From Clostridium thermobutyricum (GTDB lineage Bacteria > Bacillota > Clostridia > Ch29), in the NCBI GenBank assembly GCA_016842005.1, contig JAENYD010000004.1, positions 62,001 through 126,000 of the forward strand: a stretch of DNA of 64,000 nt, written 5' to 3'. Below are positions 12,668 through 49,724 of the stretch, piece after piece. Below the pieces are notes generated by a model. It was not told the DNA's origin, made no database searches, and saw only the letters and a program-made list of their open reading frames with translations. Every line of letters begins with the position of its first letter. Positions within the stretch are counted from its first letter, which is position 1. Made by a program: the position numbers and the translations under genes.

Positions 12668-13570
12668 TTATTCGGCCTGATGCCCCATCGGGTATCCATC
12701 AATGCAATCCTGTACATGATTTATATATATCTGCTGGTACCCGGGGTTTTCTCCCAATCCGTGAAGGTATGTCTTTACAACAAATCCCTCTTTTTTCAGG
12801 ATGGTTTTCCAGGAATCATCTTCATCGCCGGCCATATCATTTTGGGCATGGTCTCCTGCAACAACCATATAGGGCACCAGAGTAACCTCTTTTATGTCTG
12901 CCTCTTTTAGCCTGGCTGTAACATCATCAAGCCCGGGATATCCCTCAACAGTACCGACAAATACGTTGGGCATCATGTCTGATATTACAAGTTGCAGACA
13001 TGAATAAGAGGCATTGGCCGGATGAGGGGTTCCGTGCCCCATTAATACAACTGCCTGGTCCTTCTTGAGTTGGGGTAGCTGGGTTTTCAATGCCTCTGCC
13101 GCAGCCTTATAGTCATCAATAGTCGTCAGAATAGGCCTGCCGACAACCAGTTTCTCAAAAGCCCCCTCAAAGTCCGCAACGGTTTCCAAAACCTCAGTAT
13201 ACTCTTCACCGGTAATGATATGCAAAGGTTGTACAATGACCTCGGTAAAACCTTCTTCTTTCATCTTTGTCAATGCTTCCTCAGGGCTGTCAACAAGGAT
13301 GTTATCCCTGTCCTTCAAAATATTCCTGATTATACTGGAAGTGAAGGCCCTGCGCACTTCATATCCGGGAAAATGTTCTGCTATCCTGTTTTCACAGGCC
13401 TCAATGGTTACCTTTCTGGTATCTGCATAGCTTGTTCCGAAGCTTACAACCAGTATGCCTTTTTTATCAAGCCCCTGTTCCCGGGTCCCCGAAGCCTGCT
13501 GTGCAGCACATCCTGTAATTATTAAGACTGTAACAAGGACTACCAGAAACATGCATGAATATCTTCTCAT
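12668..13570 (-). CDS. cbiK: Sirohydrochlorin cobaltochelatase, lipoprotein form
   Basis: CbiK inserts Co(II) into sirohydrochlorin, the entry step of anaerobic B12 synthesis. The 300-residue protein shows the CbiK fold motifs: 'GILVVSFGTSYADTRK', 'VQPLHIITGEEYTEV' (metal-ligand histidine), 'VVLMGHGTPHPANASY' and 'VPYMVVAGDHAQNDMAGD' (second histidine). The unusual part is the start: MRRYSCMFLVVLVTVLIITGCAAQQ is a lipoprotein signal with lipobox ITGC, so the enzyme should sit outside the membrane. Exported CbiK forms are known from Desulfovibrio. Here the gene lies between the BtuCD and BtuF-like genes, which suggests a role in cobalt or tetrapyrrole handling at the surface, although cytoplasmic synthesis would need a chelatase too. 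The start ATG has a GGAG site. Confidence 0.9.
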   Translation of the reverse strand: MRRYSCMFLVVLVTVLIITGCAAQQASGTREQGLDKKGILVVSFGTSYADTRKVTIEACENRIAEHFPGYEVRRAFTSSIIRNILKDRDNILVDSPEEALTKMKEEGFTEVIVQPLHIITGEEYTEVLETVADFEGAFEKLVVGRPILTTIDDYKAAAEALKTQLPQLKKDQAVVLMGHGTPHPANASYSCLQLVISDMMPNVFVGTVEGYPGLDDVTARLKEADIKEVTLVPYMVVAGDHAQNDMAGDEDDSWKTILKKEGFVVKTYLHGLGENPGYQQIYINHVQDCIDGYPMGHQAE

Positions 13571-14429: not shown

Positions 14430-15491
14430 TCATTGATAAAGTGATCTGTTCCTGGTTATAAAAATATATATGAAAAAAGGTCCGCCAAGAAGAGTGGTCA
14501 ATACGCCAACAGGTATCTCCACGTCCATCATCACCCTTGCCCCTGTATCGGCAACAAGCAGGAGCACCCCGCCCATCAGTGCCGATAATGGAATAAGGAT
14601 ACGATTATCGGAGCCTATGGCAAACCTCAGCATATGGGGCACGATCAGACCAACAAACCCTATAATCCCGCTTACAGAGACACATACAGCGGTAATCAGT
14701 GCTCCGCAGACCAGAAATATTCTCCGCAGCTTCTGAGTATCAATACCCAGAGACCTGGATGCCTGTTCACCAGCGCACATTATGTTCAAATCCTCAGAAA
14801 AATATATGCAGACAAGCACGCATACAGTAATAATTGGAAATCCCATGGCGACATGTTTCCAACTACGCGCGGCCAGGCTTCCCATAAGCCACGATACAAT
14901 AGCTGCCACATGCTCGCCGGAGGCACTTTTTATAAAACTGATAGCCGCCGAAAGGATGGAACTTACTATAATCCCTGCAATAACCAGGTTGGCTGAATTC
15001 AAATACCCTTTTATTCTGGCTATGAAAACCACAATGCCCAGTGTCAGCAATGCCCCGGCAAAGGCACACAGGGTTATGGGAAGCTCAATCCCCGGCATAA
15101 ACAGATTCAAGTGTATTGCCATTGCCGCTCCGAAGGCCGCTCCTGTTGAAATGCCCATGGTATAGGAATCGGCCAGGGGATTCATTAACAGGGATTGGAA
15201 TACCGCTCCGGAAACCGCAAGTCCGCTCCCAACAAGTACGGCCGTCAGTATTCTTGGCAGCCGGATATCCCACACGATTGCCCGGTAAGATTCACTGATG
15301 CCGGCCAATAATTTTTCTTTTCCGCTAATCTTTCCCGCAACTATCTTCACCAGTTCACCGATGCCTATTTCTGCCCTTCCCATATTGACCGACAGTACTA
15401 TCGACAGGATAAGGATTACCAGGAGCAGGGTCGCAGCAGCTTTAGCCCTTAAGTATTTGTTTTTCAGAATAACCGAAAAATCCGTCGGCAT
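14430..15491 (-). CDS. btuC: Cobalamin/iron-siderophore type ABC transporter permease
   Basis: This is an integral membrane permease of the FecCD family, 353 residues with about ten hydrophobic segments. The hallmark stretches are present: 'IVWDIRLPRILTAVLVG', 'LAVSGAVFQSLLMNPLADSYTMGIS', and 'GIIGFVGLIVPHMLRFAIG' with the GxxLPH-like coupling helix. It is the first gene after the riboswitch leader, whose 5' untranslated region here is unusually long because a structured element lies between terminator and start. The ribosome site (GGATGG) is weak. Confidence 0.92.
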   Translation of the reverse strand: MPTDFSVILKNKYLRAKAAATLLLVILILSIVLSVNMGRAEIGIGELVKIVAGKISGKEKLLAGISESYRAIVWDIRLPRILTAVLVGSGLAVSGAVFQSLLMNPLADSYTMGISTGAAFGAAMAIHLNLFMPGIELPITLCAFAGALLTLGIVVFIARIKGYLNSANLVIAGIIVSSILSAAISFIKSASGEHVAAIVSWLMGSLAARSWKHVAMGFPIITVCVLVCIYFSEDLNIMCAGEQASRSLGIDTQKLRRIFLVCGALITAVCVSVSGIIGFVGLIVPHMLRFAIGSDNRILIPLSALMGGVLLLVADTGARVMMDVEIPVGVLTTLLGGPFFIYIFITRNRSLYQ

Positions 15492-15523
15492 GCCATTACC
15501 ATCCCTGTATTAAAGTAAAATTT

Positions 15524-15729
15524 CCATTAGTGCGGATGCTTTTATCCTCACTAATGGTTAATTGAACTAATCGGGGTGTTAGCGTCCGTTGTCCTCGCTT
15601 CAACGGTCAGGAGGCACCCCCGGCAAAACTGAAGTTTATTCCCCGGGAGCTTGAATTTCCCCAACTATAGTGAAGGAGGGGCTTACGGACGGTTACGCCC
15701 CGATAAAGTGAAAATTCCGTCAGTGAGGA
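15524..15729. repeat. Structured ~185-206 bp element with terminal inverted repeats in the btuC leader
   Basis: This stretch has no credible ORF and nested inverted repeats. CCATTAGTG/CACTAATGG form a hairpin at 15524-15557. TCCTCACTAATGG (15545) matches CCGTCAGTGAGGA (15717-15729) inverted at 11 of 13 positions. ATCGGGGTGTTAGCGTCCGT (15570-15589) is the inverted match, with few mismatches, of 15685-15704. Inside are further GC-rich stems (CCCC...GGGG, AAACT/AGTTT). The whole can fold into one long branched structure. It may be an inserted non-autonomous element (MITE-like or an IS605/HEARO/omega-RNA type scaffold) or an added regulatory RNA. Its identity cannot be settled here. Confidence 0.55.
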
Positions 15730-15787
15730 CTTTTCTTCATCCATATCCTCGTCCAGGGGAAATCCCGGGAGATTAGCCCGTCGAACT

Positions 15788-15815
15788 AAAAAATCCCTTA
15801 GCTATCAGCCAAGGG
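15788..15815 (-). terminator. Intrinsic terminator of the cobalamin riboswitch
   Basis: On the minus strand CCCTTGGCTGATAGCTAAGGG is followed directly by TTTTTT (15788-15793). It lies about 80 bases downstream of the aptamer and before btuC, the expected place for a B12-controlled transcription terminator. Confidence 0.85.
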
Positions 15816-15892
15816 ACGGTTACCCGCAGAACCAACCTCAACAAATTAATTAATAACAGTCCTTCCCTGGACGGTTATTATACCTCTGGGCA

Positions 15893-20371: not shown

Positions 20372-20498
20372 ATAAACCGGATTCTTGGTTCCAGGTAAAG
20401 TTTTAATCCCATCTGAAGCTTAGAAACCGTTATCCAGGGACGTACTCATACAGTAGGTAATACCCCAAAAACCTGCAGTATGTCAGCCATTATCATGT
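20372..20498 (+). repeat. Dispersed two-hairpin repeat, copy 1 (most divergent)
   Basis: It shares the start ATAAACCGGATTC and the core ATCTGAAGCTTAGAAACCGT, then TTATCCAGGGACGTA, with the copies at 29613, 47481 and 49521. The second hairpin differs in sequence but is kept in position (CATAC...AGGT / ACCT...GTATG). The closing end is degraded (CAGCCATTATCA instead of TAGTCATCGGATAA). It is intergenic, upstream of the amidase gene. Confidence 0.65.
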
Positions 20499-29612: not shown

Positions 29613-29743
29613 ATAAACAGGACTCTGGGCTTCAAGCAGAATTTTAACCTCATCAGAAGCCTAGAAATCGTTATCCATGGACGTATCACCGCTTATCTTC
29701 CGCCTAGAACATGGAAATACTAGCGGCAGTAGTCATCGGATAA
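29613..29743 (+). repeat. Dispersed two-hairpin repeat, copy 2
   Basis: ATAAACAGGACTC opens the copy. GGGCTTC/GAAGCCT give hairpin 1. GTTATCCATGGACGTA follows, then CCGCTTATCTTCCGCCTAG with CTAGCGG as hairpin 2, and TAGTCATCGGATAA closes it. It lies between yycI and murA, ending a few bases upstream of the murA ribosome site. Confidence 0.75.
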
Positions 29744-47480: not shown

Positions 47481-47607
47481 ATAAACGGGATTCCTGTCTT
47501 CAGGTGGGGTTTTAAGCCATCTGAAGCTTAGAAACCGTCAGGGGCTTAGCGCCACTTATCTCCCGCCTAAGAGCACGAAAGCATTAGCGGCGGTAGTCAT
47601 CGGATAA
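47481..47607 (+). repeat. Dispersed two-hairpin repeat, copy 3
   Basis: It opens with ATAAACGGGATTC. CTTCAG/CTGAAG form hairpin 1 around GTGGGGTTTTAAGCCAT. CCGCCTAA/TTAGCGG form hairpin 2, and it ends TAGTCATCGGATAA. Hairpin-1 loop sequence is shared exactly with the copy at 49521. It is intergenic, upstream of the chemoreceptor start. Confidence 0.8.
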
Positions 47608-48016
47608 AATTTGTGAATAAGCCATCAATATACAATATTCTATTCATATTGGGTGCCTTAGTAAATTATTTTATTGAAATTATTTTTTATTAATTTAAGA
47701 AGGAATTTCCATGTTTTTGTCTAATTATGCAAGTAAATGTCTAAAACTGCCGAATTTTTATATGATAAATCTTATGAATTAAGGGTAAAAGCCTCTATAT
47801 ATTAATATCGTTAATATTCGACAAATATTTATAAATTCCTTCATTTTGTACATAATATTACTTTTTGTACAAATTTTTTCTTTTTGTGAAGGATTTTCCT
47901 TGAAAACGTCTAATAGAATACATTAGTACAATTGTAAAATCTTTATAATTATTCCACATGGGTAAGGGTAAGTTTGAATTAACAGATATGAATACCAGAC
48001 GAAAGGAAGTGACCAA
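47608..48016. other. AT-rich intergenic region with three 19-bp-spaced repeats
   Basis: The region is very AT-rich and without a convincing gene. TTTTGTACA at 47844 and 47863 and TTTTGTGAA at 47882 are direct repeats with a 19-bp period, as in an operator array. A TATAAT-like -10 lies at about 47951, and AAAGGAAGTGA before 48017 serves the next gene. A 23-codon frame at about 47711 was not accepted as a gene. Confidence 0.4.
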
Positions 48017-49520: not shown

Positions 49521-49650
49521 ATAAACAGGATTCTAAGCTTCAGGTGGGGTTTTAAGCCATCTGAAGCTTAGAATCCGTTATCCAGGAGCGTAGAACCGCT
49601 TATCTCCCGCCTAAGGGGACGGGAGATAAGCGGCGGTAGCCATCGGATAA
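49521..49650 (+). repeat. Dispersed two-hairpin repeat, copy 4 (best preserved)
   Basis: GATTCTAAGCTTCAG (49529-49543) is perfectly complementary to 49561-49575. CCGCTTATCTCCCG (49596-49609) is perfectly complementary to 49620-49633. TTATCC (49578) and GGATAA (49645-49650) can close the second hairpin into a branched structure. It starts ATAAACAGG and ends CATCGGATAA. It lies after the FabH-like gene and before a convergent minus-strand operon. Confidence 0.85.
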
Positions 49651-49724
49651 AGTTGTGAAATAACTTGCGAATATGGAGACCACAGGATTACTTGAGGGTA
49701 TAATATAACACAAACAGGGGCATT

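Follow-up and report, generated by a model that had tools for sequence, protein, structure and literature searches.

The structured DNA between a cobalamin riboswitch and btuC in Clostridium thermobutyricum is very probably a copy of a bcr1-type mobile repeat, MITE-like and non-autonomous. The copy spans positions 15511-15707 of the window, the 64-kb stretch of a C. thermobutyricum contig that was analyzed, and the repeat, which is dispersed and carries no genes, has two hairpins and a fixed TTTA(T) motif at either end. MITE-like insertion is preferred to a regulatory leader, a HEARO or an omega RNA because copies are dispersed, sites are found both filled and empty, the leaders of relatives lack the element, and no Rfam family matches it. 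The repeat is called bcr1-type, not bcr1, since copies occur outside the Bacillus cereus group and the likeness is one of description. The supposed second regulatory RNA is thereby dropped from the B12 leader, and the element and a four-copy family noticed earlier in the same DNA are explained as parts of one repeat superfamily. If the element is of the bcr1 type, this kind of repeat also exists outside the B. cereus group, and the question of its mover is open to comparison across many genera, with filled and empty sites and copy-rich genomes devoid of Y1 transposase genes. A literature search found no report of the element sequence itself.

Anatomy of the element and its place in the btuC leader

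The leader lies on the minus strand, where the cobalamin riboswitch (RF00174, 15872-16061; 122.6 bits, gathering threshold 31.5) is followed by an intrinsic terminator-like hairpin (15793-15817), an order also seen in relatives. The element comes next, and downstream of it is btuC (14430-15491, minus strand), which encodes a FecCD permease (PF01032, E=9e-91). A preliminary description of this DNA had noted roughly 300 bases between terminator and gene, and about 295 nt of leader indeed separate the terminator (15817-15793) from the btuC start (15491). The riboswitch leader adjoins the element and presumably shares a transcript with it, but neither the riboswitch nor its terminator needs the element to be complete. 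The btu gene cluster also contains a homologue of CbiK-type cobalt chelatase (PF06180, E=4e-101; 12668-13570, minus strand), flanked by an ABC ATPase gene and a periplasmic binding protein gene.

The element (family A copy L001, about 197 bp) is matched end to end by a profile of foreign copies, which come from Bacillaceae and a Clostridia MAG, with no copy from the C. thermobutyricum genome. This profile matches the window at 15511-15706 over profile positions 1-144 of 145 (E=1.3e-23). The HP1-first strand is the plus strand, and the btuC mRNA reads the opposite one. The element begins with TAAAG (15511-15515) and ends with GATAAA (15702-15707), which corresponds to TTTA(T) on the minus strand at both ends. 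Terminal inverted repeats, which are typical of DDE-type MITEs, are absent: in the alignment, TAAAGTGAAACTT at one end of the element does not correspond to TTTATCCCGGTGC, the reverse complement of the opposite end.

The hairpin HP1 (15524-15557, plus strand), identified by repeat search, folding and covariation, has 14-nt arms that are 93% complementary (CCATTAGTG...CACTAATGG) and a 6-nt loop. A linker (15558-15570, plus strand; family consensus TTAGTTGAACNAAT in a 44-row alignment) joins it to HP2 (15571-15704, plus strand), a long imperfect hairpin recognized by folding, repeat search, alignment and covariation. The conserved arms of HP2, CGGGGTGTTAGCGTCCGT and ACGGACGGTTACGCCCCG, lie at 15571-15589 and 15685-15704, so the inner 20-base inverted repeat reported earlier (15570-15589 with 15685-15704) is the HP2 stem, and its partner arms are found together in other genomes. 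The earlier limits of 15524-15729 enclosed real structures but not the true extent of 15511-15707. The sequence then read as inverted ends is present, but 15704-15729 is the first HP1 arm of a second, truncated copy. That copy (15704-15737, plus strand) abuts the first, retains the first arm and loop of HP1, and matches profile positions 1-34 with E=4.6e-4; accordingly, 15704-15729 is a 26-nt direct repeat of 15511-15536 at 81% identity.

The structured stretch upstream of btuC is real, since it folds beyond shuffles and its pairing is backed by covariation. Compared with dinucleotide shuffles, the region 15515-15745 folds to -84.4 kcal/mol on the minus strand (z -6.1) and to -86.1 kcal/mol on the plus strand (z -5.3), and none of 200 shuffles was as good in either case. 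Across the 44 aligned rows, which include one noise row with wrong coordinates (L055), 23 of 41 pairs changed on both sides, whereas shuffles gave 12.2 +/- 2.1. Of all cells, 86% were paired, compared with 31-50% when one arm was slid. Ten of the 15 pairs of the HP1 helix changed on both sides.

The preliminary description had also suggested a second regulatory RNA on the same transcript. A strong fold on the transcribed strand, conserved pairing and a position in the leader would also be expected of a cis-regulatory RNA in the btuC transcript that acts after the riboswitch, and bcr1-3 repeats are reportedly transcribed within UTRs (PMC3446304). However, mobility explains the conserved pairing. 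Other copies of the family lie at unrelated intergenic sites, oriented either way relative to adjacent genes, no Rfam model matches the element, and the btu leaders of relatives carry the same riboswitch without it. The leaders compared (L100-L104 and L109, and the more distant L107 and L110) have the order riboswitch, terminator, btuF, btuC, and R1, a covariance model of the left part of the element, had no match between riboswitch and first gene in any of them. Removal of 197 nt would leave about 100 nt between terminator and start codon, compared with about 50-110 nt in relatives as judged by eye. The window site has no strict empty-site partner, as btuF and not btuC comes first after the riboswitch in the relatives. 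A second regulatory RNA at this place is thus very improbable.

The other suggestion made earlier was a HEARO or omega-RNA-like scaffold. A guide RNA scaffold of this kind, left behind by an IscB/TnpB transposon, agrees with the hairpin-rich, transposon-like and intergenic character of the stretch, but there is no cargo-bearing copy among 117 distinct copies of the family. A search of the window region with 4227 Rfam families returned only the riboswitch and chance matches at E values up to 10, and nothing but the riboswitch at the gathering threshold. The Oceanobacillus copies had no Rfam match at the gathering threshold. A guide RNA scaffold is therefore the least credible of the readings and can be set at a few chances in a hundred at most.

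As a mobile repeat lying after the riboswitch terminator and before btuC, the element would be transcribed with HP2 first. The copy in the leader is most likely a passenger that may modestly affect mRNA folding or stability.

Dispersed copies and filled and empty sites

A DNA search of the C. thermobutyricum genome found a second copy, and more were found by a short motif. R1, which was built from five copies of this genome including that of the window and omits the HP1-loop insertion of copy A3, has six matches in the genome at E<=2.5e-9; many further matches cover HP1 only and belong to family B. Copies are also present in genomes of the same taxonomic family as C. thermobutyricum, and a pattern scan of genome contigs located near-identical elements in Oceanobacillus, Aquibacillus and a Clostridia MAG. 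In the preliminary description, an element that occupied one shared site in every relative and occurred nowhere else was to speak for a regulatory leader. What was found is the opposite: the btu leaders of relatives are without the element and the copies are dispersed.

Some genomes are rich in copies, with at least 68 matches in Oceanobacillus manasiensis, at least 76 in Aquibacillus sediminis, at least 118 in Oceanobacillus jordanicus and at least 40 in the Clostridia MAG (G063), counted among 150 scored candidates. Occurrence is patchy, as the element is found in at least 6 of 245 sampled genomes of the class of C. thermobutyricum and in at least 28 of 300 from the Oceanobacillus class, with few candidates scored in each genome. 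Hosts of the family are Oceanobacillus, Aquibacillus, Peribacillus, Pseudalkalibacillus and Clostridia. The copies are intergenic and 109-198 bp long (146-159 bp for most in Oceanobacillus). Nearly all have TAAA at both ends, and most begin with ATAAAG at the left end. Those of Oceanobacillus lie in unrelated intergenic places and in either orientation relative to the neighboring genes. No copy with a long gene-bearing insert was found among the 117 distinct copies; a right end lies within 330 nt in 90 of them, 26 have no recognizable right end, and the single apparent long pair, with ends 6.7 kb apart, is taken as two separate copies.

Movement is shown by comparison of O. manasiensis and O. 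jordanicus, in which 640-820 kb of contig C1 of the former is collinear with 160-340 kb of contig C11 of the latter. The O. manasiensis copy at 641256-641412 is absent from O. jordanicus, where flanks that are 93% and 91% identical meet at ...actaaatttcat..., and the copy at 783286-783433 is absent from O. jordanicus at ...ctaattaattatggg.... Reciprocally to the latter, the O. jordanicus copy at 305471-305612 is absent from O. manasiensis. These sites have one TTTA(T)-like motif when empty and one at each end when filled, with clean junctions; the empty-site motif is somewhat altered at the 641256-641412 site, and the picture at a fourth site is less clear. As the motif does not vary, a target duplication and a right-end motif belonging to the element itself look alike. 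Position polymorphism is thus observed between two Oceanobacillus species, not in C. thermobutyricum. These filled and empty sites, together with the dispersed copies and the lack of cargo, support the earlier suggestion that a mobile non-autonomous element was inserted into a leader.

An enzyme supplied in trans would recognize the hairpins and join the element to TTTA(T) targets, and the window copy would have reached the btuC leader by such an insertion, probably by chance. A HUH (Y1) transposase is a candidate for this enzyme that would suit the lack of inverted ends, the hairpins set inside the ends and the fixed target motif. The landing site may have been the TTTA end of a previous copy, since truncated; comparable tandem insertions exist elsewhere, with copies meeting at a common TTTA end at four loci (L119, L138, L228 and L237). 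Three of these (L138, L228 and L237) are arrays of complete tandem copies spaced about 115-142 nt apart with the TTTA/TAAA end motif in common.

Four genomes of two genera (G004, G003, G005 and G001; loci L083, L084, L086 and L089) share an insertion position, with a copy that follows a small ORF and precedes pgsA-lepB, and the first bases of this copy provide the stop codon of the small ORF (GTAAAGTGA). The presence of same-site copies before pgsA across genera suggests that some insertions are old or have been kept. Phages had no match to the full element, and the viral contigs of IMG/VR include a few family members. A family member is also found in CP079755.1 (L124), which is labelled as Klebsiella grimontii plasmid pNY3A; its flanks have 26-43% GC, which is unusual for Klebsiella, and the record is either foreign DNA or mislabelled. 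A match in a Bifidobacteriaceae MAG (L121) seemingly lies inside a coding sequence and was taken as chance.

Family B and the nested module M

The four-copy family of the window, here family B, was earlier held to be unrelated to the element. That view does not stand, as a bridge profile matches all four members (E=1.6e-10 to 1.7e-4) and also, weakly, the left half of the btuC-leader element (E=0.012). The profile consists of three copies from two other Clostridia genomes (L224, L225 and L227) in which the left end of family A is combined with an HP2 of the family B type. It matches the members at 49521-49651 and 47481-47608 (E=1.6e-10 each), 29613-29743 (E=3e-6) and 20372-20444, which is partial (E=1.7e-4), all on the plus strand. 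Because of these intermediate copies, families A and B are treated as subfamilies of one repeat. Family B would be a distant subfamily, joined at the level of sequence to the btuC-leader element mainly through the intermediates. There are about 20 further copies of family B or more elsewhere in the genome, some with a second small repeat, module M, inside HP2.

Module M is about 66-68 nt long (GGGGACATTCCTGTCCACAG...CAGGTGTGTCCCCTGACC) and is found in the loops of both families (L065, L066, L071, L074, L078, L053, L058, L059 and L086), as well as in another genome of the same taxonomic family. It seems to be a small repeat in its own right, one that inserts into hairpin loops. The HP2 loop of the window copy contains a probable decayed module M at 15600-15665 (minus strand); the match is weak (E=0.082), yet it is the best match of the M profile in the 64-kb window, and the profile matches other copies in loops of the repeat family with E values down to 8.5e-24. 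A nested module M would explain why the window copy is 197 bp long when its closest sister, L002, has 126 bp.

Known repeats and candidate movers

Among known repeats, bcr1 of the B. cereus group is the nearest by description, as it too is a short, gene-less, high-copy repeat with TTTA(T) ends and tens to more than 100 copies. As described in 2004, bcr1 is reportedly about 155 bp long with TTTAT at each end. According to two papers (PMC6542083 and PMC3446304, citing Okstad 2004, Klevan 2007 and Kristoffersen 2011), there are 18 B. cereus repeats of 100-400 bp, bcr1 has a mean of 39 and up to 130 copies per genome, and its mobility is linked to TTTAT. PMC3446304 describes bcr1-3 as MITE-like and often located in UTRs or operon gaps. 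However, bcr1 has been described as a repeat of the B. cereus group only, and the present family occurs in other Bacillaceae genera and in Clostridia. Plasmid searches gave no match to the element among B. cereus-group plasmids. An approximate bcr1-like query, which is not an independent test and carries no weight here, gave significant matches to already known records only.

The CGTC-tagged REPs (PMC3733652) resemble the element in that they are palindromic, dispersed and without a known dedicated transposase, but they are 20-40 bp long, have 8-9 bp stems and are reported from five phyla that do not include Firmicutes. Identity with CGTC or GTAG REPs was rejected, as size and structure do not fit. 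An integron attC site was also rejected, as inspection by eye did not show the core-site consensus.

The element shares several features with miniatures derived from IS200/IS605 and with REPs moved by Y1 enzymes: subterminal hairpins, no terminal inverted repeats, a fixed short target motif, and tandem and nested copies. Those elements, however, are built on a 20-40 bp palindrome with GTAG, whereas the present element has two long hairpins in 130-200 bp, no linked Y1 gene, and copy-rich host genomes that in some cases are without Y1. It is a possibility, on balance a doubtful one, that the element is a REP- or PATE-like IS200/IS605 derivative, the hairpins of which are recognized by a Y1 (HUH) transposase with single-stranded excision and insertion and with TTTA(T) as both target and right-end cleavage site. 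Two subterminal hairpins without terminal inverted repeats, the same short motif at target and element end, and the single motif at empty sites are all consistent with such a derivation. Strand bias points the same way in O. manasiensis, where 26 of 27 copies on contig C1 of G060 have the same orientation with respect to GC skew (p=4e-7, two-sided), with the HP1-first strand opposite to the leading-strand sense, and in Aquibacillus (5 of 5). However, there is no such bias on contig C11 of O. jordanicus (6:8) or in the C. thermobutyricum genome (12:14). Y1 genes occur somewhat more often where the element is present (13 of 16 genomes) than where it is absent (7 of 17; p=0.03). Against this, of 55 Y1-transposase loci not one has element ends on its two sides, and no Y1 match was obtained in the Clostridia MAG G063, with its at least 40 copies, or in G403, G445 and G337, which between them, in no assigned order, have at least 4, at least 5 and at least 9. 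Additionally, guide pairing of the IS608 type is not evident by eye, and the three Y1 genes of C. thermobutyricum are flanked by other repeats.

A further reading, at about one chance in four, is a wider TTTA(T)-targeting two-hairpin mobile family that extends across Bacilli and Clostridia, is moved by a non-Y1 enzyme through an uncharacterized transposition route, and includes bcr1 as its B. cereus branch.

One Y1 gene that adjoins an element (L204) was rejected as a partner, being an ordinary IS200-type gene beside a half copy. The three Y1 transposase genes of C. thermobutyricum (L096, L097 and L098) encode proteins of 247-270 aa, and the GGGGACGGTTCTT / GGGGACAGGGACTTGTC-type repeats at their flanks are REP-like and unrelated to the element.
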